A stretch of DNA of 64,000 nt from Paracoccus amoyensis. GTDB lineage: Bacteria; Pseudomonadota; Alphaproteobacteria; Rhodobacterales; Rhodobacteraceae. Location: assembly GCF_014490725.1 (NCBI RefSeq), contig NZ_JACOQL010000005.1, forward strand, positions 1 through 64,000, in the 5' to 3' direction. The notes below the pieces were generated by a model. That model saw only the letters and a program-made list of their open reading frames with translations, was not told the origin of the DNA and searched no databases. Position 1 is the stretch's first letter. The number at the start of each line of letters is the position of its first letter. Positions 45,729 through 61,865 of this stretch are shown here, in pieces. The translations under genes were made by a program, and so were the position numbers.

Positions 45729-48700
45729 ATGTCCTCGACATCGCTTTCTGCCTTTACCCTTGATGCCAAGTTCCGCCCCGAAGCCGACCTGTTGCAAGAA
45801 CTGGTTGCGCAGACCGATCTGTCCGAGGCTGATCGCATCGCCATCACTGCCCGCGCGGCCGAATTGGTCCGCCGTATCCGCAAAGAGGCCAAGCCCACGC
45901 TGATGGAGCATTTCCTGTCGGAATACGGTCTTTCGACACGTGAAGGCGTTGCCCTGATGTGTCTGGCCGAGGCGATGCTGCGCGTTCCCGACAAGATGAC
46001 CATCGATGCGCTGATCGAGGACAAGATTGCGCCATCCGATTGGGGCAAGCATCTGGGTGAGGCATCGTCGTCGCTGGTCAATGCCTCGACCTGGGCGCTG
46101 ATGCTGACGGGCAAGGTTCTGGACGACGATCAACCGGGCATTGCCGGCACGCTGCGCGGCGCCATCCGCCGTCTGGGCGAGCCGGTGATCCGCACGGCCG
46201 TCGGGCGTGCGATGCGCGAAATGGGTCGGCAATTCGTGTTGGGCCAGACCATCGACGCCGCGCTGGATCGCGCCCGCACCCGCGAAGATCAGGGCTATAC
46301 CTACAGCTATGACATGCTGGGCGAAGCCGCGATGACCGCCGAGGATGCGGCGCGCTATGCCCGCGACTATGCCAACGCCATCACCGCCATCGCCAAGGCC
46401 TGCACCAAAGGCTCGGTCGAGGCTAATCCCGGCATCTCGATCAAGCTGTCTGCGCTGCATCCGCGCTATGAAGTGGCCAACGAAGAACGCGTTCTGGCCG
46501 AGCTGGTGCCCGTCGTGCTGGACCTTGCCCGCAAGGCCAAGGCAGGCGGCATGGGCATGAACATCGATGCCGAAGAACAGGACCGGCTGGTCATTTCGCT
46601 GAAGGTGATCGAAGCGGTGCTGGCTGATCCGTCGCTGGCTGGCTGGGACGGGTTCGGCGTGGTCGTGCAGGCCTATGGCAAACGCGCTGGCCAGACGATT
46701 GACTGGCTGTATCAGACCGCACAGCGGCTGGATCGCAAGATCATGGTGCGTCTGGTCAAGGGCGCGTATTGGGATACCGAGATCAAACGCGCGCAGGTCG
46801 AAGGTTTCCAGGGCTTCCCGCTGTTTACCAGCAAGACCGCAACCGATGTCAGCTATATCGCCAATGCGCGGAAATTGATCCGCTATGCTGATCGCATCTA
46901 TCCACAATTCGCCACGCATAACGCCCAAAGCGTTGCTGCGATTCTGGAAATGGTTGGCGATATCAACTTTGAATTTCAGCGTCTCCATGGCATGGGCGAA
47001 CGCCTGCATGACATCGTGATCCGCGAAACCAATGGCCGCTGCCGGATTTATGCGCCGGTCGGCGCGCATCGCGATCTGCTGGCCTATCTGGTTCGTCGCC
47101 TGCTGGAAAACGGTGCAAATTCGTCCTTCGTCCACCAGATCGTTGATGAAAGCGTCAGCCCGGAAGCTGTGGCCCGCGACCCCTTTGAGGCGCTGGTAAC
47201 GGCACGTCCACCTGCAACGCTGGTTCAGCCCCATGCCCTGTTCGGGGCGGAGCGTGACAATTCGCTTGGTTTCGATCTGGCGGATGAAGAAACGCTGGCC
47301 CGGATCGAGGCTGCGCGTTCCGTTGATCTGCCTGACGCTGGCCCGCTGACGGTTTCAGCGCCGGTTGGCACCGTGCGCCCTGTCATCAACCCGGCGACGG
47401 GTGAAAAGATTGCTCAGGTAACCGAGGCATCTGCCGAAACCGTGACACAAGCCATCGCTGATGCACGGGTTTGGGATGCTCCGGCCGCAGAACGCGCGGC
47501 TGTTATGCGCCGTGCTGCCGATCTTTACGAAGAAAACTACGGGCTTATCTTTGCCGCCTTGGGTCGCGAGGCTGGCAAATCGCTGGGCGACGCAGTTGGC
47601 GAATTGCGCGAAGCCGTGGACTTCCTGCGCTACTACGCTCAGCAGGGGGAAAACAGTGCCGAAGCGCCGCGTGGCATCTTTACTGCGATCAGCCCCTGGA
47701 ACTTCCCTTTGGCGATTTTTAGCGGTCAGATTGCCGCTGCACTGATGGCCGGCAATGCCGTGCTGGCAAAACCTGCCGAACAGACGCCGGTGATCGCGGC
47801 CATCGCGGTGCGGTTGCTGCATCAGGCCGGGGTTCCGGCCCATGCGCTGCAACTATTGCCGGGTGACGGTGCGACGGTTGGCGCGGCGCTGACCGGTGAT
47901 GCGCGGATCAATGGCGTGGTCTTTACCGGCGGAACCGATACGGCCAAGATCATTGCGCGCAGCATGGCCCAGCACATGGCCCCCGGCACACCGCTGATTG
48001 CGGAAACCGGTGGCCTGAATGCGATGATCGTGGATTCCACCGCACTGCCCGAACAGGCGGTGCGTGATATCGTGATGTCATCCTTCCGGTCGGCTGGTCA
48101 GCGTTGTTCGGCCCTGCGCTGTTTGTATGTGCAGGAAGACGTGGCCCCGCATCTGACCCAGATGCTGAAAGGCGCGATGGATGAATTGTCGGTCGGGGAT
48201 CCGTGGCTGCTGTCGACCGATGTCGGCCCGGTCATTGATGCGGAGGCGCAGGAGGGCATTGTCGATTACCTGCGCGACAACACCAACCGCGTGTTGCACC
48301 GCCTGAATGTGCCGTCACAGGGGCATTTCATCGCACCGACCATGTTGCGGGTAAACGGGATCGAGGATCTTGAGCGTGAGATTTTTGGCCCGGTCCTCCA
48401 CGTCGCCACCTATCGCGCCCGCGATCTGGACAAGGTCGTCGCGGCGATCAATTCGCGTGGCTTCGGGCTGACCTTTGGCCTGCACACCCGGATCGATTCC
48501 CGCGTGCAAGAGGTCACTGACGCTATCCATGCGGGCAACATCTATGTGAACCGCAACCAGATCGGGGCCATCGTGGGCAGCCAGCCCTTCGGCGGCGAAG
48601 GGTTGTCGGGAACTGGTCCAAAAGCGGGTGGCCCGCTGTATCTGACCCGCTTCTTTGCGCCAAAAGCTGCAGATGCCGATGCGACGGATTGGGCGCAAGC

Positions 48701-49136
48701 CGATGATCCCGCAAGGATCGCGAAAGCCCTTCGCGATGCGCAGCCCCGCGACATCACGGAAACCATCATGCCCGGCCCGACCGGCGAATTGAACCGCCTG
48801 ACAATGCTGACCCGCGCACCTGTTCTGTGCCTTGGTCCGGGGCCAGCGGCCGTGGCGGCGCAAGTGGCCGCGGTCGAGGCGTTGGGCGGACAGGCCGTTG
48901 CCGCGCAAGGTTCACTGACCGCAGAGGCGTTGGCTGGCATCGCCGGGCTGTCGGTCGTGCTGTGGTGGGGGGATGCGGAAACGGGCCGCGCCTATGCCCA
49001 GGCCCTTGCCCAGCGGCAGGGAGAGATCGTGCCGCTGGTCAGTGCTGTGCCCGATCTGGCCTATATCGCGCATGAACGGCATCTATGCGTTGATACGACC
49101 GCAGCGGGCGGCAACGCGGCGCTGCTGGCCGGATAA
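45729..49136 (+). CDS. putA: Bifunctional proline dehydrogenase / pyrroline-5-carboxylate dehydrogenase
   Basis: PutA (1135 residues) oxidises proline to glutamate in two steps, with FAD in the first and NAD+ in the second. The proline dehydrogenase barrel (about 160-460) shows ISIKLSALHPRYE, RLVKGAYWDTEIK and RIYAPVGAHRDLLAYLVRR. The aldehyde dehydrogenase part (about 530-990) has Glu759 in IAETGGLNAM and the catalytic Cys793 in AGQRCSALR. There is no N-terminal ribbon-helix-helix domain as in E. coli, which fits separate control by PutR. The ATG follows GGAGTCCGCC. Confidence 0.97.
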   Translation: MSSTSLSAFTLDAKFRPEADLLQELVAQTDLSEADRIAITARAAELVRRIRKEAKPTLMEHFLSEYGLSTREGVALMCLAEAMLRVPDKMTIDALIEDKIAPSDWGKHLGEASSSLVNASTWALMLTGKVLDDDQPGIAGTLRGAIRRLGEPVIRTAVGRAMREMGRQFVLGQTIDAALDRARTREDQGYTYSYDMLGEAAMTAEDAARYARDYANAITAIAKACTKGSVEANPGISIKLSALHPRYEVANEERVLAELVPVVLDLARKAKAGGMGMNIDAEEQDRLVISLKVIEAVLADPSLAGWDGFGVVVQAYGKRAGQTIDWLYQTAQRLDRKIMVRLVKGAYWDTEIKRAQVEGFQGFPLFTSKTATDVSYIANARKLIRYADRIYPQFATHNAQSVAAILEMVGDINFEFQRLHGMGERLHDIVIRETNGRCRIYAPVGAHRDLLAYLVRRLLENGANSSFVHQIVDESVSPEAVARDPFEALVTARPPATLVQPHALFGAERDNSLGFDLADEETLARIEAARSVDLPDAGPLTVSAPVGTVRPVINPATGEKIAQVTEASAETVTQAIADARVWDAPAAERAAVMRRAADLYEENYGLIFAALGREAGKSLGDAVGELREAVDFLRYYAQQGENSAEAPRGIFTAISPWNFPLAIFSGQIAAALMAGNAVLAKPAEQTPVIAAIAVRLLHQAGVPAHALQLLPGDGATVGAALTGDARINGVVFTGGTDTAKIIARSMAQHMAPGTPLIAETGGLNAMIVDSTALPEQAVRDIVMSSFRSAGQRCSALRCLYVQEDVAPHLTQMLKGAMDELSVGDPWLLSTDVGPVIDAEAQEGIVDYLRDNTNRVLHRLNVPSQGHFIAPTMLRVNGIEDLEREIFGPVLHVATYRARDLDKVVAAINSRGFGLTFGLHTRIDSRVQEVTDAIHAGNIYVNRNQIGAIVGSQPFGGEGLSGTGPKAGGPLYLTRFFAPKAADADATDWAQADDPARIAKALRDAQPRDITETIMPGPTGELNRLTMLTRAPVLCLGPGPAAVAAQVAAVEALGGQAVAAQGSLTAEALAGIAGLSVVLWWGDAETGRAYAQALAQRQGEIVPLVSAVPDLAYIAHERHLCVDTTAAGGNAALLAG

Positions 49137-50039: not shown

Positions 50040-50114
50040 GCCGGGGCCGATCTGCTGACTCTGAAAGCCAACTTGGCAAATCAAACCTCGTTTCGCCAGA
50101 GTTGGATATATAGA

Positions 50115-50137
50115 AACCGCCCTGATCGGGCGGTTTG
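50115..50137 (-). terminator. Terminator after the small secreted-protein genes
   Basis: AAACCGCCC (50115-50123) and GGGCGGTTT (50129-50137) form a perfect 9-bp stem with a 5-base loop. On the minus strand it is followed by TATAT-rich sequence. It lies 60 bases after the stop of the gene at 50196. Confidence 0.65.
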
Positions 50138-50195
50138 TGGGGCATCGTGTGAGATACCAGCAAGCATTCGATACAGGTAAGACACCGCCGACGGT

Positions 50196-50447
50196 TCAGC
50201 GGGTATAGGTGTCGACCGGCTTACCGTTTGAAAAATCGCTGACCGTCACTTGCGTCGAGGCATCAATGCCAGCGCGGCTCAGTTCACGGGCGCTGAGAAC
50301 CCGGTTCGCGTCGACGGTGACAGGTTTGGCAGCAGACACAGTGACCTGGGTTGCGTCAGGGTTTTCGTTTTGCTGACCCGAAGGGGCTGCAGCGACCGAA
50401 CCGGCGGCCAAGGTCAAAGCGGTAAGAACAATAGCAAAGCGTTTCAT
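50196..50447 (-). CDS. Small secreted protein of unknown function, tandem paralogue 1
   Basis: 83 residues with a clear signal peptide (MKRFAIVLTALTLAAGSVAA, cleavage near AAA-PSG). The mature part has no cysteine and is polar. Its second half, SARELSRAGIDASTQVTV followed by DFSNGKPVDTYTR, is nearly the same as in the neighbouring gene at 50513. AGGAG lies 9-10 bases before the ATG. I recognise no named family; similar short exported proteins occur in Paracoccus-like bacteria as hypothetical proteins, as far as I know. Confidence 0.8.
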   Translation of the reverse strand: MKRFAIVLTALTLAAGSVAAAPSGQQNENPDATQVTVSAAKPVTVDANRVLSARELSRAGIDASTQVTVSDFSNGKPVDTYTR

Positions 50448-50512
50448 CTTATATTCTCCTGACTTCGTTCAAAACCTTGATTGGTTTGAAATTAAGTAGT
50501 CTTGTCCCCGAC

Positions 50513-50755
50513 TTAGCGGGTATAGGTGTCAACAGGTTTGCCGTTCGAGAAGTCGGTGACGGTGACTTGGGCAGCAGCATCGACACCGGCGCGGCTCAGT
50601 TCACGGGCGCTCATTACGCGGGCAGCGTCGACGGTGACAGTCTGCTCGGCGGTCACCTGATGCGGCATGCGGTCAGCAGTGTCACTGGCTTGCGCAACAG
50701 CAACGGAACCGGCGGTCAGGGCCAAAGCGGTCATGGCGATAGCAATGCGTTTCAT
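50513..50755 (-). CDS. Small secreted protein of unknown function, tandem paralogue 2
   Basis: 80 residues, signal peptide MKRIAIAMTALALTAGSVAV with cleavage near AQA. The mature part shares SARELSRAGVDA and the 13-residue ending DFSNGKPVDTYTR with paralogue 1. The middle segments differ, which shows diverging duplicates rather than a recent copy. GAAGGAAG precedes the ATG. It is upstream of paralogue 1, 65 bases apart, so they are probably co-transcribed. Confidence 0.8.
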   Translation of the reverse strand: MKRIAIAMTALALTAGSVAVAQASDTADRMPHQVTAEQTVTVDAARVMSARELSRAGVDAAAQVTVTDFSNGKPVDTYTR

Positions 50756-50931: not shown

Positions 50932-51810
50932 TCACTCCAATGCGATGATGTCGACGCTGTGATCGCCGGTCTGCTTGCCATACATACGCAAGGCGCCAGT
51001 CAGCGGTGCTGCATCGGAATAGTCGCGGCCATAACCGATGGTCACGTGATCGGACGATACGAAGCAGGCATTCGTCGGATCATATTCGCACCAGCCTGCC
51101 TCGTTCCCGGTCCACGCCCGAACCCAGGCGTGCATGGCATCTGCACCTTCCAGGCGGGGACGACCGCGCGGAGGAAGCGTGCGTAAAAAGCCCGAGACAT
51201 AGGCGGCAGGAATACCAAGGCTTCGCAAGCCAGAGATCATGATCTGCGAGAAATCCTGACAGACGCCGCGCCTGCCGATGAACGCCTCGGCAATCGGGGT
51301 GTCGACCTCGGTCGCTTGGGCATCAAAACTCATATGCGTGTTCAATGCCCGCCCAAGTGCCTCTACCGCCGCGCACGCTGTGTCCGAACCCGCGCAGACA
51401 TGACGCGCGAAATCCGCGATCCGGGGATCGTTCGGAATCCGGGGCGATGCGTGGATGAAATGTTGCGGCGACGACAGGCCAAGATCGGTCACAGTCTGCA
51501 ATTCACGGTGTATTTGATCCAGCGGAGCGGACAGGTCCAGCACGGATTCCATCCTGTGCCGCAAGACCTGACCCTGCATATCAAAACGCAACTCCGTCAG
51601 TCCGGCGGGCAGGGCAAGCTGGATCACCTCTGTCCCAAAGAAATCCGTGAATGTGCTGCGTTCGGTTGCGGCGGGGGTCACGCTGACATTGCATTGCTGC
51701 ACTTCCTGCACCCCCGGAAGATCGGCGGGACAAATCCGCAAAAGCTGTCGCCCGGCCCCGATGGGACGATCAAATTCGTAATGGACCGACAGGCGCAGCG
51801 AATACAGCAT
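50932..51810 (-). CDS. Transglutaminase-like cysteine protease
   Basis: A 292-residue transglutaminase-superfamily protein. An N-terminal beta domain (LSVHYEFDRPIGAGRQLLRI) precedes the catalytic core with the triad Cys in GRRGVCQDFSQIM, His in DAMHAWVRAW and Asp in CEYDPTNACF. In bacteria such proteins usually act as peptidases or amidases rather than crosslinkers. It shares one base with the end of the ATP-grasp gene, so it is the last gene of a three-gene unit. Confidence 0.9.
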   Translation of the reverse strand: MLYSLRLSVHYEFDRPIGAGRQLLRICPADLPGVQEVQQCNVSVTPAATERSTFTDFFGTEVIQLALPAGLTELRFDMQGQVLRHRMESVLDLSAPLDQIHRELQTVTDLGLSSPQHFIHASPRIPNDPRIADFARHVCAGSDTACAAVEALGRALNTHMSFDAQATEVDTPIAEAFIGRRGVCQDFSQIMISGLRSLGIPAAYVSGFLRTLPPRGRPRLEGADAMHAWVRAWTGNEAGWCEYDPTNACFVSSDHVTIGYGRDYSDAAPLTGALRMYGKQTGDHSVDIIALE

Positions 51811-54197
51811 CAGTGGAAATATGTGGTCGTGATTTCATCAGACAATATCGCGATCCGCCCCCGCAGATTCCACAATAGCTCGGACGTCAGAGAGGCGGCA
51901 TCGGCTGTGGCAATCTCGGCATGCAGGCGTAGCACGGACCGGGCCAGCGGCGACAGCGCGCCGTTCTTGTTCGCTCCGGGCAGATTGTCGATCTGTTCGC
52001 GCAGACGGTCAATCTGGTGGCGCAGCGCACGCGGGTTCAGCGGGTCCAGCGCCAGCAATTCGACAACCGTATCACGCGTGGTCGAGACGTTGAACCGGCG
52101 CCGATGCGTCAGCACGCTGTCGCCGATCTCGATGGAAATGTCCAAGCCGCCTTCGGGCGCGTCGGGATCTGCCAGCACCGCCAGCACCCCGGAGATGTTC
52201 ATCGCACGCTCATGAAGACGGCCGATCGACAGAAAGCGCCAGCCGGTAAAGCGATACATGTTTTCATGCACCAGACCCGAAATTCCCGCCAGTTTGCGCA
52301 GCAATGCGCTAAGCGCACTGGCGGCGTCATCGCCGGGCGAAACACGCTGTGCCATTCTGCGGGCGCTGCGGTCGATATCTTGCAGCGCCGACCAGGCGTC
52401 GGGTGAAAAGCGATCGCGCACCGCCCCGGCCGAGTTCAGGGCCGAGCCAAGGCAGTTCAGCAATTGTTGTGGTATCGGCTGATCCAGTTTGATGCCGAAT
52501 TGCTGCATCAGGGGCTTCAGACTCGCCAGCAACTGCCCGCCTTCATTGCCGGTTTCCGCAAGGCGGCTATGATAGGCCCGGATCAACCGGATGATGCTTT
52601 CGCTTCGCTCGATATAGCGGCCCAGCCAGAACAGGTTATCGGCGGCGCGGGCGGGCAGTCCTCCGGTCAGGCTGCGTTGATCGGTGATATGGGGGGCGCG
52701 GATGATGCTGAAATCTGTAACCTCGTGGTCGCCCACGACCCAGACATCCGCCGCCGTGCCGCCTTTTTGCATGGCAATGGCGGACGGATCGTCTGTTGCG
52801 CCGATCCGCGCAAAGCCGCCCGGCATGATCTGCCAACCCGTCGCCGTCCGGGCTAGAAACACCCGCAGGGCCATGGGGCGCGGGATCAGTCTTCCATTCT
52901 CCAGCGCAGGTGCGGTGGAAAGCGTGACGGTTTCCTGCGCCACCAATGTGCTGCCCTTTCGCGCGATCAGGTGGGCCAGTTCTTCATGCGGCATATCGGT
53001 GGTCAGCGTCGGGTCCACTTCCGGACCAAATGACAGGCCGGTCGACAAGGCATCGCCAAGAATCAGTTTGTTGGGGTTGGCAAGCACCGCAGCCTGTGTC
53101 GCAACATCGCCGCACCACCATGTTGCGATATTCGGCATTGCCAGCGGTTGACCTGTCAGTTCCAGCGACAATTGCGGCAAAAAGGCCATCAGCGCGCGCG
53201 TTTCCAGAATGCCCGTGCCCAAGGCGTTGACCATGCTGACATTGCCCGAGCGCAAGGCCGACACCAGCCCAGGTGTTCCGATGCGTGAAACCGGGTTCAG
53301 TTCCAGCGGATCGGCATAGTTGGAATCCAGTCGCCGCCAGATCACCTCGGCCGGTAACAATCCCTGCACCGTGCGCATCATCAGCCGCCCGTTCGAGACA
53401 ACCAGATCGCCACCCTCCAGCAGGGTAAAGCCCAGATAGCGGGCGATATAGGCGTGTTCAAAATAGGTTTCGTTCAAGGTGCCCGGCGTCAGGATCGCCA
53501 CCCGGCTGTCCTTGTCCGTGCGCATATTCATCAGCGTGTCGCGGAAGTCGCGGAAGAATTCGGCAAGGCGGTAGACGTTGGCCTTGGCATAGAAATCGGA
53601 AAATGCGCGTGTGGTGGCAACGCGATTTTCCAGCGCATAGCCCGCGCCCGATGGGGCCTGTGTGCGATCTGCCAGCACCCACCATTTGCCGTCCGGTCCA
53701 CGGCCCAGTTCAAATGCAAGAAAGTGCAGAAAGTGACCAGAGCGCGGTTTGATGCCCACCAACGGCCGCTGCCAGTCCGGGTTGCCCGCCACGATTTCGG
53801 GTGGCAGACGACCAGAAGCGACCAGCGTGTTCGCGCCGTAAAGATCGGCCATCAGCGCCTCTAGCAGATCGGCACGCTGCATCAAGGCCTTGCCGATATC
53901 GATCCAGTCCGCTTCGGACAGAAGCATGGGAATATGGCTGAGCGGCCATGCCCGTTCCCTCGATTCACCGGTGCCGTATTGACGATAGAAGACCCCGCTA
54001 TCCAGAAGATAGCGGTCGGCGCGGGCCAGATTTTCCGACAGCTTTTCCTGAGAAAGCGAAGTCAAATGCTGCGCCAGCCCGGCCCAAAGCGGACGGATGT
54101 TGCCCTCGGCATCGACCATTTCGTCACGCACGCCGGGCAGGGGGCGATAACCCTGCATGATGTCGTCCAGCTTAGCTGCAGCTATTTCATCACTCAT
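51810..54197 (-). CDS. Fused circularly permuted ATP-grasp and alpha-E domain protein
   Basis: A 795-residue fusion. Residues about 1-475 are a circularly permuted ATP-grasp (COG2308-type), seen in SGVFYRQYGTGESRERAWPL, VAILTPGTLNETYFEHAYIA and GPEVDPTLTTDMPHEELAHL-like segments. Residues about 500-795 are an alpha-helical alpha-E domain (COG2307-type), starting ARAADNLFWLGRYIERSESI. Comparative genomics has predicted that this pair, with transglutaminases, makes and breaks amide bonds in a peptide; no reaction has been shown as far as I know. In many genomes the two domains are separate genes. It follows the DUF2126 gene by 6 bases. Confidence 0.9.
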   Translation of the reverse strand: MSDEIAAAKLDDIMQGYRPLPGVRDEMVDAEGNIRPLWAGLAQHLTSLSQEKLSENLARADRYLLDSGVFYRQYGTGESRERAWPLSHIPMLLSEADWIDIGKALMQRADLLEALMADLYGANTLVASGRLPPEIVAGNPDWQRPLVGIKPRSGHFLHFLAFELGRGPDGKWWVLADRTQAPSGAGYALENRVATTRAFSDFYAKANVYRLAEFFRDFRDTLMNMRTDKDSRVAILTPGTLNETYFEHAYIARYLGFTLLEGGDLVVSNGRLMMRTVQGLLPAEVIWRRLDSNYADPLELNPVSRIGTPGLVSALRSGNVSMVNALGTGILETRALMAFLPQLSLELTGQPLAMPNIATWWCGDVATQAAVLANPNKLILGDALSTGLSFGPEVDPTLTTDMPHEELAHLIARKGSTLVAQETVTLSTAPALENGRLIPRPMALRVFLARTATGWQIMPGGFARIGATDDPSAIAMQKGGTAADVWVVGDHEVTDFSIIRAPHITDQRSLTGGLPARAADNLFWLGRYIERSESIIRLIRAYHSRLAETGNEGGQLLASLKPLMQQFGIKLDQPIPQQLLNCLGSALNSAGAVRDRFSPDAWSALQDIDRSARRMAQRVSPGDDAASALSALLRKLAGISGLVHENMYRFTGWRFLSIGRLHERAMNISGVLAVLADPDAPEGGLDISIEIGDSVLTHRRRFNVSTTRDTVVELLALDPLNPRALRHQIDRLREQIDNLPGANKNGALSPLARSVLRLHAEIATADAASLTSELLWNLRGRIAILSDEITTTYFH

Positions 54198-54203
54198 CCC
54201 ACA

Positions 54204-57200
54204 TCACATACCTGCAGGTCGCCGCAAGTCCAGTGTCAGGGGAAATTCGCGATGTGCGCGTTCGGCGGCGATAACGCGATCCTGACCGGGGCGATGTCCG
54301 TGCGGGGTAAAGCGCGCCAGTCTGCGGGCCTCTGCCTCGTTGCCGTTGATCGGGAAGGTGTCATAGTTGCGCCCGCCGGGATGGGCGACGTGATAGACAC
54401 ATCCCCCAAGGGCGCGGCCCGACCACGTATCAAAGATGTCAAAGGTCAGCGGCGCATCAACCGGCGTCACAGGGTGCATCGCCGACGCGGCTTGCCAGGC
54501 TTTGAAGCGCACCCCCGCCACGGCCTCACCCGCGCCGATATCGGTCAGGGGGACTGCGCGACCGTTGCACAGAACCTGATAGCGGCCCGGATCGGCGGCG
54601 GAGAGTTTGATCTGCAGCCGCTCGGTCGAGCTGTCTGTATAACGCACCGTGCCACCAAGCGCACCGGTTTCGCCCAGAACGTGCCAAGGCTCCAATGCCT
54701 GGCGCAGTTCCAGATTGACGCCGTTGAATTCCGCCTCGCCACAAAAGGGGAAACGGAACTCGGCCTGCGCCTTGAACCATTCCTGCTGCATCGGAAAGCC
54801 ATGGGCGGTAAGGTCGTCCAGCACGTCGCAGAAATCTTGCCACACGAAATGCGGCAGCATGAAGCGGTCATGCAGCGCCGTGCCCCAACGGGTCAGCCCC
54901 CCCGTAAGTGGCGTCTTCCAGAACCGCGCGATCAAGGCCCGAAGCAGCAATTGCTGGGCCAGGCTCATCCGCGCATCCGGGGGCATCTCGAACCCGCGAA
55001 ACTCGACCAGTCCAAGGCGACCTGTCGGGCCGTCAGGTGAATACAGCTTGTCGATGCAGATTTCCGCGCGATGCGTATTGCCCGTCACGTCGGTCAGGAT
55101 GTTGCGCAGCAGCCGGTCGGTCAGCCACGGGAACGGCGGCTGACCCTTGTCGGGCGAGGGGATCTGGGCCAGCGCGATTTCCAATTCGTAAAGCGCGTCG
55201 TGACGGGCTTCGTCGATGCGCGGTGCCTGACTGGTCGGGCCGATGAACAGACCCGAGAACAGATAGGACAGCGACGGGTGCCGGTTCCAATACAGGATCA
55301 GACTGGCCAGCAGATCGGGACGACGCAGAAACGGACTGTCAGTGACCGTGGCACCCCCGACAACGACATGGTTGCCGCCGCCAGTGCCGGTATGCTTGCC
55401 GTCGATCATGAATTTTTCGGCGCCAAGCCGTGACTGGCGGGCATCTTCGTAAACACCCTGAGTGATCGATACGCAATCGTCCCAGTCTTTTGCCGGGTGG
55501 ATATTCACCTCGATCACGCCCGGATCGGGGGCGACGCGGATCACGTTCAGGCGTGGATCATGCGGCGGGGCATAACCTTCCACGTGGACTTTCAGGTTCA
55601 GGCGCAGGGCCGCGACCTCGACCGCGCGCAGGAGGTCCAGATATTCTTCCAGCGTGGCGACGGGCGGCATGAAGACGCATAGTCGGCCATGTTTTGGTTC
55701 GACCGACAGCGCGGTGCGCACCAGCCCGTCAAGGTCGCCCTCGCCGGGCATCACCTGTTCAACCAGCTCCTGCACGGGGCCGCTGGTGACAAAGCTGGCC
55801 ATCGGCTGAGACCGGCGATCCGCAGCGATTGGCGCCGGTTCCGCCAGCGGTTGGCGCGGGACCGTGGGGTCCGTCGGATTGATATAGGGATAAACCGACG
55901 CGGGCAAATGCGGCAGAGAGTTCAGCGGCAGGCGATAACCAACCGGACTGTCGCCGGGCACAAGGAATACCTTGCCACGCCGCAGACGCCATTTTTCGGA
56001 ATGCCAGCCAAGCCCGGATTTGCTTTGCCAGCTTTGGATTGGCAGCACAAAGCCTGTCGGCGTCGTCAAACCGCGATCAAAGACGGCGGCAATGCGGTGG
56101 CGGGCCTCGGGATCCTCCAGTTCCGAATTATCGGGGGTGACGTTTGGCGGCAGGTTCGCCTCTTTCATCAGCCATTCGGCAGGGTCTTCAAAGGCGGGCA
56201 TGACGTTTTCATCGCTGACGCCCAATTCCGCCGCCATTTCGCGCAGCAGTTCCTGTGCCTCGATGGGGGTCGCGTCACCTTCGTCGCTTTCCTGTGCGAT
56301 CAGGTCGGGGTTCTGCCAGATCGGCTGCCCGTCCGTCCGCCAATATAGCGAAAAGGTCCAGCGGGGCAAAGTCTCGCCCGGATACCACTTGCCTTGGCCG
56401 TAATGCAAAAAGCCATTCGGCGCGAAGCGATTGCGCAGCTTGCGCACCAGCTTGTCGGCCAGCACGCGTTTCGACGGGCCAACCGCGTCGGTGTTCCATT
56501 CGGGGCTTTCGAAATCGTCGATCGAAACGAATGTCGGCTCTCCTCCCATGGTCAGGCGGACATCGCCTTCGCGCAATGCGGCATCAACCTGCTGGCCCAG
56601 CCTGTTCAGATCGGCCCATGCCTCATCGCTGAACGGTTTGGTGATGCGGGGGTGTTCGGCGACGCGGCGCACCTGCATGTCAAAGCCGAAGTCGACCTCG
56701 GCATAGCTGGCAAGCCCGGAAATCGAGGCACAGCTGCGATAATGCGGCGCGGCGGCCAGCGGGATGTGGCTTTCCCCCGTCAGCAGGCCCGAGGTCGGGT
56801 CAAGCCCGATCCAGCCCGCACCGGGGATATAAACCTCGGCCCATGCGTGCAGATCGGTAAAATCAACCTCGGTGCCAGAGGGGCCGTCCAGCGCCTTCAG
56901 ATCAGGTTTCAACTGGATCAGATAGCCCGACACAAAGCGCGCGGCAAAGCCAAGATGGCGTAGCGCATTGACCAGCAGCCACGTGGAATCGCGGCAAGAT
57001 CCGCTTTGCAGTTGCAGGGTTTCTTCGGGTGTCTGCACCCCCGGCTCCATGCGGATGGTATAGTTGGTCTGGCCTGAAATTCGCGCATTCAGGTTTACAA
57101 CGAAATCGACCGTGCGTGTCTGGTCGCGCGGGATGCTGTTCAGCAATTGTTGCAGCAACGGCCCCGCCGGTTCGGCCTGACGGTAAGGGATCAGCTCCTC

Positions 57201-57533
57201 GGCCAGTTCCGGGGTATAGGAGAACGGCCAGTGTTCGGCGCTTTCCTCGACGAAAAAATCAAAGGGGTTATAGACGGTCATATCGGCGACCAGATCGACC
57301 TCGATCTTGAATTCGCGCACGGGTTCGGGAAACACGAAGCGGGCCAGCCAGTTGCCGAACGGGTCTTGCTGATGGTTCACGAAATGCTTTTCGGGCGTGA
57401 CCTTCAGCGAATGTGAAATGACCTTGGTCCGGCTGTGCGGCGCAGGTCGCAGCCGGATGATCTGCGGGCCCAACGTCACCGGGCGATCATATTTGTAATG
57501 CGTCAGATGATAAATGCTGGCCTTGATCGACAT
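54204..57533 (-). CDS. Transglutaminase-DUF2126 fusion protein
   Basis: An 1109-residue protein. The N-terminal 290 residues are a transglutaminase with N-terminal beta domain ([20 protein letters not shown]) and the triad Cys in [15 protein letters not shown], His in [12 protein letters not shown] and Asp in GLDPTSGL. From about residue 300 to the end runs the DUF2126 region (for example [48 protein letters not shown]), often likened to glutamine-synthetase-like or amidoligase folds. First gene of the unit with the ATP-grasp/alpha-E and transglutaminase genes. The Anbu proteasome-like gene that often joins this set is not in the window. Confidence 0.9.
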
Positions 57534-57670: not shown

Positions 57671-58645
57671 TCAGGGCCTGCCCAAGGCGTTGAAGGCTGC
57701 AGTCACCCGGTCCCATTCATGGCGGTTGCCCGGAACGCCCATCCGCAACCAGGTGTCAGAATAGGGGAATTGGCGTGTCCAGATATGGTTGCGCGCCAGT
57801 GCGGCTTGGACGGCCTTGGCCGCGGGGGTGCTGTAAAGGCGGAACAGATGCGTGCCGCCAGCCTGCTGCCACCCCGCCCGCAATGCAAGATGGTCCAGAC
57901 GCAGTCCGGCTTCGGAATGGTAACCGATGGTTTCATCTGCCCAATCGGTGTCCGCCATTGCTGCGGCTGCGATTTCCAGTGCGGGGCCGTTGACCATCCA
58001 CGGACCAGCAATCTCGGCCAGCTTTGCCAGCAGATCGGTATGGGCGATGACAAAGCCCAGCCGCAGCCCGGCCAGCCCCCAGAATTTTCCGAAACTACGC
58101 AATATGATGGCGTTGTCCGGAAAACCCGAGGCGATGGACAGATCGGGGCGTGGATCGGCGAAACTTTCATCGACGATCAGATGGCCGACCTTCTGCGCCA
58201 GTTCTGTCAGTGTGCCAGGCGACCATTCGCGGCCATCGGGATTGTTGGGATTGACCACAACCGCCAGCTTGGCGCCGGCCATGTGATGAGGGTCAGCCAC
58301 CTTCGTCACGGACCAGTTTGCGCTGCGCAGGCTTGCGGCATGTTCATTATATGTCGGCGTCAAAACCGCCGCATTGCCCGGCGCAAACAGGCGTGGGATC
58401 ATCTGAATCGCGGCAGAGGCCCCGTTGACCGGCAGGATGTTCGCGGGATCGCAACCGAACCAGCTTGCAGCGATCTGCGTCAGATGACGGGACGCTCGCG
58501 CCGTCGGCAGGGCATGCCATGCTTGGGCGCTGACTTTTTCAATGGGCCAGGGGCGTCGGTTGATACCAGTGGACAGATCGATCCAGTCACCCGCACCATA
58601 TTGCGCAATCGCCCAATCAATATTGCCCCCGTGATCGCGCGCCAT
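57671..58645 (-). CDS. cobC: Threonine-phosphate decarboxylase-like PLP enzyme (CobC/CobD)
   Basis: A 324-residue class I/II aminotransferase-fold protein. The start DHGGNIDWAIAQYG and LSTGINRRPWP are typical of the cobalamin enzyme that makes the aminopropanol (or its phosphate) arm of vitamin B12. The PLP lysine is in LRSFGKFWGLAGLRLGF, with NPNNPDGR and the C-terminal Arg in WLRMGVPG also conserved. No other cob genes are in view, and no cobalamin riboswitch was found upstream. A related histidinol-phosphate aminotransferase is a less likely reading. Confidence 0.85.
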   Translation of the reverse strand: MARDHGGNIDWAIAQYGAGDWIDLSTGINRRPWPIEKVSAQAWHALPTARASRHLTQIAASWFGCDPANILPVNGASAAIQMIPRLFAPGNAAVLTPTYNEHAASLRSANWSVTKVADPHHMAGAKLAVVVNPNNPDGREWSPGTLTELAQKVGHLIVDESFADPRPDLSIASGFPDNAIILRSFGKFWGLAGLRLGFVIAHTDLLAKLAEIAGPWMVNGPALEIAAAAMADTDWADETIGYHSEAGLRLDHLALRAGWQQAGGTHLFRLYSTPAAKAVQAALARNHIWTRQFPYSDTWLRMGVPGNRHEWDRVTAAFNALGRP

Positions 58646-58852
58646 TCTGCCTCCGCCGCCGTCCTGTTTTTGCTACCACTTGCTAGGGCCAAGCCTGTTG
58701 TCCTGCAATGTGTTAGCGAATTTTTACTTTACACCAAGCGGATTAACCTACACGATATGTAGTGAGAACATTCGGGCACCCACGCTCGGTGTTGTGGAAC
58801 GACCAAGGGTTAGCGGCACCAGAATCGCACCCATCAGAGGCAGGACAGAGTC

Positions 58853-59356
58853 ATGGCACAGACCGAACGATTCGTCGTGAGTGACGAGATTCATCCCATT
58901 GATATTGTTGAAGCCGTCGCCACCCATCATGCTTGGGAATTTGACCGGCTGGCCGACGACCAGATTGCCATGGTCGTTGCGGGGCAGTGGCGAAACTACT
59001 CGGTCACGCTGGCATGGTCGACGCGAGAGGAAGTCCTGCGCCTGATCTGCACCTTTGATATGGACCCGCCCGCAGATCGGTTGCCATTGATCTATGAAAC
59101 GATCAATCTGGCCAACGATCAGGTCTGGGATGGTGGCTTCACCTTCTGGTCGCAGCAGCGGTTGATGGTCTGGCGCTATGGTCTTGTGTTGGCGGGCGAC
59201 GCCTTTGCCTCGCCCGAGCAAATCGACCAGATGATCAGCAATGCGCTGATTGCCTGCGAACGCTTTTATCCCTCGTTTCAATTGGTAGGATGGGGCGATA
59301 CCACCCCGTCCGCCGCGCTGGACATCGCCATGGGCGAGGCCTACGGACGGGCGTAA
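58853..59356 (+). CDS. YbjN-domain protein
   Basis: A 167-residue protein of the YbjN family, which adopts a fold like type III secretion chaperones. Family sequence is seen in HAWEFDRLADDQIAMVVAG, LRLICTFDMDPPADRL and YETINLANDQVWDGGF. In E. coli YbjN is linked to motility and stress, without a defined reaction. It precedes proC by 41 bases and may share its transcript. The 207-base gap to the divergent cobC contains no clear promoter. Confidence 0.85.
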   Translation: MAQTERFVVSDEIHPIDIVEAVATHHAWEFDRLADDQIAMVVAGQWRNYSVTLAWSTREEVLRLICTFDMDPPADRLPLIYETINLANDQVWDGGFTFWSQQRLMVWRYGLVLAGDAFASPEQIDQMISNALIACERFYPSFQLVGWGDTTPSAALDIAMGEAYGRA

Positions 59357-59397
59357 AGAGGGCCGATCTGCCCTCGCGATGTAGCCTGGGGAAGCAG

Positions 59398-60225
59398 ATG
59401 AGCGAATTTGACGATATCAATAAGCGTGGCCTTGTGCTGGTCGGGTGTGGCCGCATGGGTGGTGCCATGTTGAAGGGCTGGCTTGCCCGTGGGTTGAACC
59501 CCGGTGCTGTGACCGTCATTGATCCCAAGCTGGCACCCGAATGGCAAAGCGCGGGGCTGCGTGTGAATGCGCCGCTGCCCGACAACCCTGCGGTTCTGGT
59601 GTTGGCGGTCAAGCCGCAGATGATGGCCGATGCCTTGGGTGAAGTGCCGGTGCTGACCGACACGCTGGTTCTTTCCGTGGCGGCGGGAACCACGATTGCC
59701 ACCTATGAAGCCGCCTTTCCCGGTGCGACGATTGTGCGCGTCATGCCAAATACACCCGCGGCCATCGGTCAAGGGATTTCCGCGCTGATCGGGAATGCCC
59801 GCGCGACAGATGCGGATCTGGATATGGCCGAGGCGCTGATGGGTGCCGTTGGCCGCGTCGTCCGGTTGGAATCCGAGGATCAGATGGATGCCGTTACCGG
59901 GCTTTCCGGCAGCGGTCCGGCCTATGTGTTCCACATGATCGAGGCCATGGCGCAGGCCGGGCAGGCGGTTGGCCTGTCGCCGGAACTGTCGTTGGAACTG
60001 GCGCGGATGACCGTTGCAGGGGCCGGGGCCTTGGCCGTTGATGCCGATGAAGACCCGGCAATACTGCGCGAAAACGTCACCTCGCCCGGTGGCACGACTG
60101 CGGCCGGTCTGATGGTGTTGATGAACGAGGAACACGGCCTTCGCCCACTGATGAAGCGCACGGTTGCCGCCGCGACCGCGCGTGGACGCGAACTGGGGCG
60201 GGACCTGGAACGGGGCGGCAAATGA
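59398..60225 (+). CDS. proC: Pyrroline-5-carboxylate reductase
   Basis: ProC (275 residues) makes proline from pyrroline-5-carboxylate with NAD(P)H. The Rossmann motif is [17 protein letters not shown], then [32 protein letters not shown] and the C-terminal [17 protein letters not shown]. The ATG at 59398 follows GGGGAAG; the frame is open upstream but overlaps the YbjN gene. It is coupled to csaA by an ATGA overlap. It opposes PutA in proline metabolism. Confidence 0.96.
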
Positions 60226-60554
60226 CGATCTCTTTCGATGATTTCCTGAAAGTCGATATCCGCGTGGCGACGATCACCCGCGCCGAACCCTTCCCCGAGG
60301 CGCGAAAGCCCGCGATCAAGCTGTGGCTGGATCTGGGGGAGCTGGGCGAACGCAAATCCTCGGCCCAGATCACGCGGCATTACACGCCCGAACAGTTGAC
60401 CGGAAAACAGGTGCTCTGCGTGGTGAACTTCCCGCCACGCCAGATCGGCCCCGTCAAGTCGGAAGTGCTGGTGCTGGGCGTGCCCGATCCCGACAATGAG
60501 GTGGTGTTGATCCGCCCTGATCTGGACGTCCCGAATGGTGGAAGGCTCTACTGA
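60222..60554 (+). CDS. csaA: CsaA-like tRNA-binding-domain protein
   Basis: A 110-residue single tRNA-binding (OB) domain, like the ends of methionyl- and phenylalanyl-tRNA synthetases. Seen are [38 protein letters not shown] and [17 protein letters not shown]. CsaA from Bacillus has chaperone-like activity and binds tRNA; the role here is unproven. Overlaps proC and touches the dehydrogenase gene (TGATG). Confidence 0.93.
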
Positions 60555-61498
60555 TGAAACTGCTGGTCACCCGGCCCATGACGGCACGCGCCACCAAAGC
60601 CATTGCCGATAAATTCGACGCCGAATTTCACGAGAACCGCCCTTTGACGGTTGAAGAAGCAGCACAGGCGATGCGCGATTACGATGCCATCATTCCGACC
60701 CTGGGCGACGGTTTTTCTGCCGCTGCTTTCGCGGGCGATCTGCGTTGCAGGTTTCTGGCGAATTTCGGCGCGGGCTATAACCACATCGACATCGCCGCCG
60801 CAACAAAGGCCGGGATCAAGGTGACGAACACCCCCGACGTGGTGACGGATGCCACAGCTGATATCGCTGTGACGCTGATCCTGATGACGATGCGCCGCGC
60901 AACCGAGGGCGAGGCGATGTTGCGTGCAGGCGAATGGACCGGCTGGCATCCGACGCAGTTGCTGGGCGGGCACGTGACCGGCGCGACGGTTGGCATCATC
61001 GGCATGGGCCGCATCGGCAAGGCCATCGCGCGGCGCTGTCATTTCGGCTTCGGGATGAAGGTGATTTTCTTCAATCGCTCGCCTGTGACAGGGTTGGATT
61101 TCCCCGCAGAACAGATTGCCGATTTGCACGACATGTTGCGTGCTGCTGATGTGGCTGTCGTTGCGGTTCCGGGTGGCTCGACCAGGCACCTGATCGGAGC
61201 CGCCGAACTGCGGGCACTTGGACCCGACGGCTATCTGGTCAATATCGCGCGTGGTGATGTGGTTGCCGAAGACGCGCTGATCGCGGCGCTGAACGGCGGC
61301 ATGATCGCCGGGGCGGGGCTGGACGTTTATGAACGCGAGCCGATTGTCCCACAGGCGTTGATGGATGCGCCAAACGCGTCCCTTTTGCCGCATCTGGGAA
61401 CTGCGACGGATGATGTGCGCACGGATATGGGTATGTGCGCGCTGGACAACCTGATCGCAATGTCCGAAGGCCGCGCCCCTCACGATCCTGTGAACTGA
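60554..61498 (+). CDS. D-2-hydroxyacid dehydrogenase, probable glyoxylate/hydroxypyruvate reductase
   Basis: A 314-residue NAD(P)-dependent dehydrogenase. The nucleotide site is GIIGMGRIGKAIARR; the catalytic Arg, Glu and His are in LVNIARGDVV, DVYEREP and LLPHLGTATDD. After the Rossmann motif FFNRSPV suggests NADPH preference. Family relatives reduce glyoxylate or hydroxypyruvate. Glycerate 2-kinase lies two genes on, which supports hydroxypyruvate reduction to D-glycerate, but the substrate is inferred. Confidence 0.9.
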   Translation: MKLLVTRPMTARATKAIADKFDAEFHENRPLTVEEAAQAMRDYDAIIPTLGDGFSAAAFAGDLRCRFLANFGAGYNHIDIAAATKAGIKVTNTPDVVTDATADIAVTLILMTMRRATEGEAMLRAGEWTGWHPTQLLGGHVTGATVGIIGMGRIGKAIARRCHFGFGMKVIFFNRSPVTGLDFPAEQIADLHDMLRAADVAVVAVPGGSTRHLIGAAELRALGPDGYLVNIARGDVVAEDALIAALNGGMIAGAGLDVYEREPIVPQALMDAPNASLLPHLGTATDDVRTDMGMCALDNLIAMSEGRAPHDPVN

Positions 61499-61513
61499 CT
61501 TTTGCTAACTCGT

Positions 61514-61538
61514 GGAACGCTTCCTGCCACGACACGTT
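61514..61538 (+). promoter_or_regulatory. EcfG-type (general stress) promoter motif before the CsbD-like gene
   Basis: GGAAC (61514-61518) is followed after exactly 16 bases by CGTT (61535-61538). This matches the GGAAC-N16/17-CGTT consensus of the alphaproteobacterial stress sigma factor EcfG. It lies 37 bases before the ATG of a stress-type gene. No EcfG/PhyR genes are in the window, so use of the site is unproven. Confidence 0.5.
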
Positions 61539-61575
61539 GATCCGGCATAAGGCAATAACGTCTAAGGAGGACGCT

Positions 61576-61776
61576 ATGAACTGGGATGTTATCCAAGGCA
61601 AATGGAAGCAGGTCAAAGGTTCGGTCAAAGAAAAATGGGGCGAACTGACCGACGACGAGTTGGATCAGATCGACGGCAACAGAGACAGATTGGCTGGCAA
61701 GCTGCAGGAAAAATACGGCTGGGCCAAGAATGATGCCGAGCGTGAGATTGACGATTATTTCCGCGACAAAACCTGA
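61576..61776 (+). CDS. CsbD-family stress protein
   Basis: A 66-residue acidic, lysine-rich helical protein with the CsbD core: MNWDVIQGKWKQVKGSVKE, KWGELTDDELDQIDGNRDRL and GKLQEKYGWAKNDAEREIDD. Members are strongly induced by general stress in many bacteria; their molecular role is unknown. A perfect TAAGGAGG precedes the ATG at 61576, which is chosen over longer in-frame starts inside the dehydrogenase gene. A terminator follows, so it is a single-gene unit. Confidence 0.93.
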   Translation: MNWDVIQGKWKQVKGSVKEKWGELTDDELDQIDGNRDRLAGKLQEKYGWAKNDAEREIDDYFRDKT

Positions 61777-61802
61777 TTTCGGCTTTGCGTGATGGATGCA
61801 GG

Positions 61803-61828
61803 AAAGGGTGCCTTGGGCACCCTTTTTT
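61803..61828 (+). terminator. Intrinsic terminator after the CsbD-like gene
   Basis: AAAGGGTGCC (61803-61812) pairs with GGCACCCTTT (61816-61825) around a TTG loop and runs into TTTTTT. It lies 27 bases after the stop. Confidence 0.9.
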
Positions 61829-61865
61829 GCTTTCGCTTGGCCCGAAGGCGACCTAGCATCGCGGC

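Follow-up and report, generated by a model that had tools for sequence, protein, structure and literature searches.

Three genes lie close together on the minus strand of the window, i.e., the entire 64,000-nt stretch of DNA that was analysed. Gene 1 (54204..57533) is an ORF of 1109 aa with Pfam domains Bact_transglu_N, Transglut_core and DUF2126, and its product is termed TG-DUF2126 here. Gene 2 (51810..54197; 795-aa ORF) encodes an ATP-grasp/Alpha-E fusion (CP_ATPgrasp_2 and Alpha-E), and gene 3 (50932..51810; 292-aa ORF) encodes a stand-alone transglutaminase-like protein (Bact_transglu_N and Transglut_core). Genes 1 and 2 are separated by a gap of 6 bases, and genes 2 and 3 overlap by 1 base. 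All three ORFs are real and intact at these coordinates, in agreement with the preliminary description of a three-gene minus-strand unit having this gap and overlap. NCBIfam contained no family for gene 1, gene 2 or gene 3.

The order and strand of the trio were retained in 39 of 40 family loci (taken from 50 DUF2126-positive genomes), and the remaining locus is cut off by the end of its contig; the final trio gene of L055, one of the 39, is 3.3 kb further on. The arrangement was also kept in 70/80 named genome loci (the best 80 of 592) and in 14/20 phylum loci (20 of 112, chosen for spread before Alpha-E positions were seen). Thus, it is not due to chance. In 1/40 family, 7/80 named and 4/20 phylum loci, some of which are contig ends, the fetched stretch contained DUF2126 but no fusion gene. 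DUF2126 was present in 112 of the 348 phylum genomes and 50 of the 149 family genomes sampled.

In gene 1, the transglutaminase-like domain occupies approximately residues 1-260 and DUF2126 residues 278-1104. The latter scored 1314 bits against the PF09899 profile (cut-off 27). Gene 1 is a nearly full-length match to this putative amidoligase family, with an N-terminal transglutaminase; no difference from an ordinary member was found. The catalytic triad is intact in both gene 1 (C180/H229/D245, invariant in 17 aligned sequences) and gene 3 (C184/H227/D244, invariant in 18). These findings support the proposal, made in the preliminary description, of a gene set that makes and breaks amide bonds with both transglutaminase triads intact.

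No sequence relative of gene 1 was found in the PDB at E ≤ 0.01, and the literature searched yielded nothing on DUF2126. A Foldseek search with the predicted structure of DUF2126 (residues 268-1109; model pLDDT 74.8) gave GmaS, YbdK, glutamine synthetase (GS) and Dop as leading matches, with a best E value of only 2.9e-3 (prob 0.93). In VIA, all 50 rows shown belonged to the GS family, with Z of 7.1-9.0, a range that VIA calls middling. At these modest scores, the predicted fold resembles GS-fold amide ligases (GmaS, YbdK, Dop and the Dop relative PafA), of which Dop is a member of a proteasome-linked tagging system; however, DUF2126 is larger and carries a transglutaminase domain, and no Pup-like protein was found beside the genes. 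PafA does not itself figure among the rows shown, from which nothing is concluded. Residues E332, E652, E675, H722, R772, E844 and R846 were present in 58/58 relatives (drawn from the 80 best named loci), and some motifs held in only 13-17 of 20 distant loci. We take these Glu, His and Arg residues to be candidate metal/ATP residues, their roles being assigned by motif from GS. The GGEPTF strand has Thr (T334) in 58/58 relatives at what is presumably the position of the second Glu of E-x-E in glutamine synthetases, and DUF2126 may consequently lack one metal ligand. The predicted structure suggests that DUF2126 is a GS/GCS-like amidoligase, and a likelier ligase of the unit than the fused ATP-grasp.

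The gene 2 product consists of a circularly permuted ATP-grasp fold (~25-490; CP_ATPgrasp_2, 424 bits) and Alpha-E (514-794; PF04168, 196 bits). The ATP-grasp fold is retained (3n6x: Z 39.8, rmsd 3.4, 440 aligned), and relatives of glutathione synthetase and glutathionylspermidine synthetase (GspS) gave Z of 19-24. In Alpha-E, the ER motif residues R527, E530 and R531 were fully or almost fully conserved among 17 and 49 sequences; a structure search matched assorted helical proteins at Z about 8-10.5 and was treated as uninformative.

The Glu-x-Asn pair, a Lys and the Gly-rich loop of ATP-grasp proteins are, we assume, the Mg/ATP ligands. In the window fusion, Glu-x-Asn is replaced by Ala176-Asp177-Arg178 and Lys by Gly381. 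An intact Glu-x-Asn pair was found in 32/32 stand-alone relatives vs 0/128 fusions (Glu, 32/32 vs 1/128; Asn, 32/32 vs 0/128), the ATP-site Lys in 32/32 vs 10/128, NSSQGG in 32/32 vs 0/128, and the K-to-Gly-loop pattern in 25/32 vs 0/128. Arg stood in place of the Asn ligand in 119/128 fusions, and the two loop glycines were kept in 20/128 and 8/128. These counts exclude L176, which duplicates the canonical set of the window's own genome, and matches of ≤ 300 bits, such as the contig-edge ATP-grasp fragment of L222. Glu-x-Asn and NSSQGG were likewise gone from fusions of other phyla (Granulicella and Tsukamurella) and retained in stand-alone ATP-grasp copies of Hymenobacter, Tsukamurella and Deinococcus. 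The decay is graded, because 10/128 fusions and the Granulicella fusion retain Lys.

GspS and glutathione synthetase ATP-grasp ligases resemble gene 2 in fold, and their combination of ligase and amidase resembles the logic of gene 1. All 24 GspS-family members fetched had Glu-x-Asn and Lys; the window fusion lacks both, and no CHAP amidase domain was detected by Pfam. When these 24 sequences were used in hhalign, the residues lost from the fusion fell in the expected register with the Mg ligands of E. coli GspS, in an alignment that was weak (E 0.42, prob 0.14%). A single GspS gave no sensible alignment to the stand-alone ATP-grasp profile, and nothing on GspS ligand roles was found in the literature searched.

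Despite the lost ligands, the ATP-grasp half of the fusion is under purifying selection (dN/dS about 0.24), and it therefore resembles an ancient conserved pseudoenzyme. Stand-alone and fused ATP-grasps split cleanly in a tree calculated with the diagnostic sites masked (support 1.0, branch 0.80). The tree contained 35 stand-alone forms and 49 fusions: the window fusion, 16 fusions of L210-L229, two plasmid-borne ones, and a random 30 of the other 111. As judged from these sequences, loss of the active site from the fused ATP-grasp appears to be ancient. Some pseudokinases have a rearranged active site, and the fused ATP-grasp could similarly be alive, using other metal ligands or acting on another nucleotide or in another chemistry. 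Such activity would fit the purifying selection and the near-invariance of R219 (128/128), D326 (128/128), R473 (127/128) and D511 (127/128) in fusions. We nevertheless consider it unlikely, in view of the Arg that usually replaces the Asn Mg ligand and the rarity with which Lys and the loop glycines are kept.

With one supposed ATP enzyme of the unit apparently lacking its active site, the chemistry of the unit probably rests on DUF2126. The preliminary description had held that loss of conserved ATP-grasp ligands would count against the system as a whole. The ligands are indeed lost from the ATP-grasp half of the fusion; the system is not thereby refuted, because the GS-like DUF2126 keeps candidate residues. 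DUF2126 thus becomes the protein to assay, and the fusion the protein to treat as its partner. No inactive or pseudo ATP-grasp was described in the literature searched. The new point is an ATP-grasp/Alpha-E fusion without ATP-grasp ligands, though an earlier description, in Iyer 2009, is possible.

Anbu had no match among the ORFs of the window. The preliminary description regarded the trio as lacking its usual proteasome-like partner. This was correct for the unit and the window and wrong for the genome: a whole-genome search for Anbu and for other Alpha-E/ATP-grasp copies, as that description had suggested, revealed a canonical ATP-grasp/Alpha-E/transglutaminase/Anbu set on another contig (C10), with Anbu at C10:91496-92323. 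The trio is thus not an orphan. This Anbu has Thr, Asp and Lys at positions 1, 17 and 32, which by our reading are the candidates named in PMC6376114. Anbu was found in only 1/40 family, 1/80 named and 3/20 phylum DUF2126 loci fetched, and its absence beside the trio is therefore normal.

The canonical Anbu operon (Iyer et al. 2009, as cited in PMC5666114 and PMC6376114) has the same three domain types as the trio, with ATP-grasp before Alpha-E before transglutaminase, and the two often share one genome and sometimes one locus. In the trio, by contrast, ATP-grasp and Alpha-E are fused and the ATP-grasp site is degenerate, TG-DUF2126 leads the unit, and Anbu lies outside it.

Among the 149 family genomes, canonical-type Alpha-E was found among the matches listed in 49/50 DUF2126-positive genomes (Fisher 4.6e-9); the lone exception, G118, is a fragmented genome that is 84% complete. 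Anbu was present in 47/50 (Fisher 1.9e-6). The canonical type without DUF2126 occurred in 55 of the 149, again among the matches listed. In the 348 phylum genomes, Alpha-E was present in 112/112 DUF2126-positive vs 89/236 DUF2126-negative genomes, an association that is partly inherent, since the fusion brings an Alpha-E of its own; 106/112 had two or more Alpha-E copies. Anbu was not found in 39/112 by a single-protein search (E ≤ 1e-10). Canonical ATP-grasp lay in the same fetched stretch as DUF2126 in 2/40 family, 1/80 named and 10/20 phylum loci. Canonical-type Alpha-E lay ≤10 kb from DUF2126 in 18 of the 86 phylum genomes with a listed Alpha-E row (26/112 had none). At L172-L174, DUF2126 adjoins ATP-grasp/Alpha-E/Anbu with no separate transglutaminase, and L217-L218 are further hybrid loci; the canonical loci, including L172-L174, were picked with Alpha-E positions already known.

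The trio and the canonical set might be independent of each other, with nothing in common but their domain types, their co-occurrence reflecting large genomes and shared ancestry. The co-occurrence statistics do ignore shared ancestry, and the sets are mostly unlinked in the window's family. However, the presence of Alpha-E in every DUF2126-positive phylum genome, the linkage in half of the 20 phylum loci, the distances of ≤10 kb in 18/86 genomes, and the hybrid loci make independence distinctly unlikely. In these comparisons, genomes with the DUF2126 trio nearly always carry the canonical set as well, and in some lineages the two lie side by side. The neighbourhood survey proposed in the preliminary description thus yielded the Alpha-E set as a conserved partner.

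On balance, we favour the view that the trio serves the Alpha-E/circularly permuted ATP-grasp/Anbu pathway as an accessory module for amide ligation and hydrolysis. DUF2126 would use ATP to link an amine to a carboxylate, probably a glutamate-like one, and the transglutaminase domain of gene 1 together with gene 3 would cut or exchange the resulting amide. This pairing is modelled on the amidase and synthetase halves of GspS. The fusion, itself non-catalytic, would assist by binding substrate, by serving as a scaffold, or by regulating either DUF2126 or the sister set's active ATP-grasp/Alpha-E pair. In Y. bercovieri, the ATP-grasp of the sister set liberates phosphate from ATP, and no complex was found among the Anbu-operon proteins (PMC6376114). 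Anbu has been argued to act as a protease, not in peptide synthesis (PMC5666114). No product of these genes was found in the literature searched. The accessory-module reading replaces a vague "peptide ligase operon" with specific predictions for genes that are common in the phylum (112/348 genomes). Because of the tie to an Anbu-type set, the sister set may mask or account for the outcome of knocking out a single set.

Dop works in reverse or as a hydrolase in the Pup system. DUF2126 might do likewise, and genes 1 and 3 would then be a purely catabolic, amide-degrading pair of transglutaminase-like peptidases. Dop does figure in the top fold matches for DUF2126; however, it ranks 8 and 11, below the ligases GmaS, YbdK and GS, and we judge a catabolic role very unlikely. 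A gene for PutA, an amino-acid catabolic protein, neighbours the trio in the window and would suit such a role, although it is not conserved beside the trio across the 40 family loci.

In a highly speculative reading, to which we attach the least credence, the trio would combine with the Anbu set in a second bacterial protein/peptide-tagging pathway parallel to Pup. The transglutaminase domain would deamidate or cut a Gln/Glu isopeptide (the role of Dop), the GS-fold DUF2126 would ligate (the role of PafA), the fusion with its dead ATP-grasp would partner the active ATP-grasp/Alpha-E pair in the manner of a prozyme, and Anbu, a proteasome relative, would act downstream. Tagging by the Anbu operon has already been proposed (PMC6376114); the new elements would be a GS-fold ligase as counterpart of the Pup ligase and a regulatory role for the dead ATP-grasp. 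A search for a Pup-like substrate beside the genes at 141 loci, covering the locus only, revealed no small ORF (28-110 aa) conserved across clades. Clade-limited small-ORF clusters near the genes were judged to be probable antisense shadows of a flanking gene.

Two small secreted-looking proteins (50513..50755, minus strand, 80 aa; 50196..50447, minus strand, 83 aa) are encoded next to the trio, outside the conserved unit. They are tandem paralogues with 68% identity. At E ≤ 0.001, matches were found in 2/149 family genomes: their own and one at 32% identity. One homologue lies 2 kb downstream in Paracoccus shandongensis, and L129 gave a sub-threshold match (45% over 40 residues, E 0.058). The linkage suggested in the preliminary description was therefore not borne out, as the small genes do not travel with the trio, and as substrates they were rejected for want of a general link. 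The view that the unit is an orphan peptide-ligase system, with the gene 2 ATP-grasp as ligase, DUF2126 as a second ligase and secreted peptides as substrates, agrees with the Pfam domain names, the closeness of the small genes and the Lys kept in some fusions, but is highly improbable given the near-total loss of the Mg-pair Glu and Asn from fusions, the canonical set in the same genome, and small genes essentially confined to that genome and one named relative. Clustering of neighbouring genes, based on crude gene calling and covering the window plus the 40 family loci, recovered the trio together with scattered families present in 11, 4 and 3 loci; an opposite-strand cluster is taken to represent antisense shadows.

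The setting in which the accessory module acts is probably nitrogen limitation, by analogy with the sister set of Pseudomonas: in P. putida, its genes were up about 16-22-fold on nitrate vs ammonium (PMC8050072 Table 2). Against this setting, the regions upstream of the trio had no conserved nitrogen-control motif (n=101): no dyad stood out (best in 6/101), and the sigma-54 consensus was found in 0/101. An NtrC-like GCAC-N5..7-GTGC was present in 7/101 of these regions, vs 3.2 in random stretches.

The three-gene unit proposed in the preliminary description was borne out. The ORFs are in place on the minus strand, and Pfam domain matches identified gene 1 (54204-57533) as TG-DUF2126 (transglutaminase plus DUF2126), gene 2 (51810-54197) as a CP-ATP-grasp/Alpha-E fusion, and gene 3 (50932-51810) as a transglutaminase. 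Genes 1 and 2 are separated by a 6-base gap and genes 2 and 3 overlap by 1 base; the Cys-His-Asp triads of both transglutaminase-like proteins are intact, and were invariant in alignments of relatives. Gene 1 was closest, among the named loci listed, to that of Paracoccus shandongensis (86% identity), which points to a probable Paracoccus host and to Rhodobacteraceae as the family sampled. Neither the domains nor the notion of a peptide-ligase system is new (Iyer 2009, as cited in PMC5666114, PMC6376114, and PMC3597751), and the locus itself is an ordinary representative of a set found widely. Trio order and strand were conserved in 39 of the 40 loci from the family, in 70 of the 80 best-matching named genome loci, and in 14 of 20 loci from the phylum; several of the exceptions are incomplete contigs. 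The flanks (45729-49136 and 57671-63110) hold ordinary metabolic genes (PutA, aminotransferase, YbjN, ProC, 2-hydroxyacid dehydrogenase, and a DUF4147/MOFRL protein), none of which recurred as a neighbour when the 40 family loci were compared with crude gene calling.

The unit had also been described as lacking its usual partner, the proteasome-like protein Anbu. A search of the same genome showed that contig C10 carries another Alpha-E copy; it also gave two proteasome-family hits, one of them near that copy. The C10 proteasome-family protein matches Anbu structures (5loy, E 1.6e-71; 5nyj, E 1.2e-70) and has Met-Thr at the predicted mature start, Asp at position 17, and Lys at 32; the residues compared are those named for Anbu in the abstract of PMC6376114. 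Because a second Alpha-E set and Anbu lie on C10, the absence of the partner is true of the locus only, not of the genome. Gene order at the C10 locus is ATP-grasp, Alpha-E, transglutaminase, two reverse-strand genes (methyltransferase and 5'-nucleotidase; L003 10671-13434, contig C10 88670-91433), and Anbu. Unlike in this locus, Anbu directly follows the transglutaminase in 13 of 19 other canonical loci compared.

Among 149 family genomes, DUF2126 was found in 50, Alpha-E in 110, and Anbu in 105. Canonical-type Alpha-E occurred, among the matches listed, in 49 of the 50 DUF2126 genomes and in 55 genomes without DUF2126; Anbu was present in 47 of the 50. The corresponding counts for 348 phylum genomes were 112, 201, and 140. 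All 112 DUF2126-positive phylum genomes had Alpha-E, 106 had at least two copies, and 73 had Anbu; 11 genomes had at least two Alpha-E copies and no DUF2126. Fisher tests, which ignore ancestry, gave small values: in the family, 4.6e-9 for canonical Alpha-E; in the phylum, 1.2e-35 for any Alpha-E and 7e-11 for Anbu. Since one Alpha-E comes with the trio, part of the Alpha-E association is trivial; the two-copy and canonical-type counts are the ones that carry information. Two further genomes placed in the same genus (G023 and G430) have Alpha-E and Anbu without DUF2126; the trio is patchy within the genus.

Anbu was found in 1 of 40 family, 1 of 80 named, and 3 of 20 phylum DUF2126 loci, and canonical ATP-grasp in 2, 1, and 10, respectively. 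Of 86 DUF2126-positive phylum genomes (of 112) with canonical-type Alpha-E among the matches listed, 18 had it within 10 kb of DUF2126. The trio and canonical set adjoin, for example, in L074, L086, L211, L212, and L219. In L172-L174, a divergent TG-DUF2126 adjoins ATP-grasp/Alpha-E/Anbu, and the fetched stretch contains no fusion gene and no separate transglutaminase; these loci may be a natural hybrid in which the gene 1 transglutaminase substitutes for the stand-alone enzyme. DUF2126 also occurs without the fusion gene within the fetched stretch in L088, L094, L122, L136, L150, L226, and L228.

When the fusion was aligned with the stand-alone ATP-grasp of the same genome, it proved to lack the residues expected for Mg/ATP. 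We counted ligands (C10 protein numbering) in two groups, 32 stand-alone proteins and 128 fusions; proteins were assigned to a group by how closely they resembled the genome's own copies, not by motif. Glu203, Asn205, Lys411, and the NSSQGG motif were each present in 32/32 stand-alone proteins; Lys411 was retained in 10/128 fusions and NSSQGG in none. Glu (kept in 1/128) and Asn (0/128; Arg in 119) are all but gone, a loss that the preliminary description had named beforehand as evidence against its proposal; it bears on the ATP-grasp half of the fusion and does not refute the system, since DUF2126 keeps its candidate residues. The window fusion has Ala176, Arg178, Gly381, and Ala475-Met476 at these sites. 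R219 and D326 were retained in 128/128 fusions, and R473 and D511 in 127/128. Beyond the Pseudomonadota, Glu-x-Asn and NSSQGG are likewise gone from Granulicella (Acidobacteriota) and Tsukamurella (Actinomycetota) fusions, whereas both are present in the stand-alone proteins of Hymenobacter, Tsukamurella, and Deinococcus; in that alignment the Lys is kept by the Granulicella fusion but lost by the Tsukamurella fusion. When the diagnostic sites were masked, the tree still split stand-alone from fused proteins exactly (support 1.0, branch 0.80). Compared with P. shandongensis, the ATP-grasp half has a dN/dS of ~0.24 (0.216/0.915), indicating that this half is not freely decaying. The fusion model (pLDDT 88.7) matched 3n6x (Z 39.8) and glutathione/glutathionylspermidine-synthetase relatives (Z 19-24), in which Glu-x-Asn presumably provides the Mg ligands (GspS E330/N332). 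These two residues were invariant in 24/24 GspS-family sequences, and hhalign set them, weakly, opposite Glu203/Asn205. By sequence, the fused domain looks like a conserved dead ATP-grasp. In the literature searched, which covered papers citing the founding work (Iyer 2009) rather than that paper itself, no prior description of this conserved ligand loss or of the trio's dependence on the canonical set was found.

DUF2126 is a candidate ligase. Its model (residues 268-1109, pLDDT 74.8) gave GmaS, YbdK, glutamine synthetases, and depupylase Dop as leading PDB fold matches (best E 2.9e-3, prob 0.93), and 50/50 VIA rows shown were GS-family enzymes (Z 7.1-9.0, the tool's middling range). E332, E652, E675, H722, R772, E844, and R846 were invariant in 58/58 relatives. 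Motifs were kept in 20 distant loci as follows: GGEPTF and HR.E...DK in 20, P..G..EVN in 19, PR.DEAR and VEFR.FE in 17, and HTG.GGGNH in 13. T334, also in 58/58 relatives, occupies what we take to be the site of the second Glu of the glutamine synthetase E-x-E pair, which counts against the ligase reading; the roles we assume for single residues are assigned through motif analogy. Most likely, DUF2126 would activate a carboxylate and join it to an amine, and amides would be opened or exchanged by the transglutaminase-like enzymes, both the one attached to DUF2126 and the separate one. The ATP-grasp/Alpha-E fusion is probably a structural or regulatory partner.

As reported in PMC6376114, the sister-set ATP-grasp of Y. 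bercovieri turns over ATP with phosphate release, its Anbu had no peptidase activity toward the substrates tested, and the operon proteins formed no stable complex among themselves. Induction of the P. putida sister set on nitrate versus ammonium (Anbu up log2 4.4, ATP-grasp up log2 4.0; PMC8050072) and association of the set's domains with urea metabolism domains in marine metagenomes (PMC3597751) point to nitrogen stress as the likely setting. No conserved motif backing this setting was found upstream of the genes.

The small secreted-looking proteins P0004 and P0005 (window 50196-50755), downstream of the trio, are tandem paralogues, 68% identical, with a C-terminal stretch strongly common to both. 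The preliminary guess that they are linked to the trio was not supported. Only 2 of 149 family genomes had matches (this genome and one at 32%), and P. shandongensis alone among the fetched loci had a clear homologue; the pair is nearly lineage-specific, and was rejected as a conserved partner. One of the two has a weak sub-threshold YbgS match, and a terminator-like hairpin, identified by eye, follows the pair near 50110-50140.

DUF2126 matches in plasmid records totalled 26. Plasmid pACIX901 of Granulicella tundricola (L254, Acidobacteriota) carries the same three-gene set, annotated merely as transglutaminase family and ATP-grasp.
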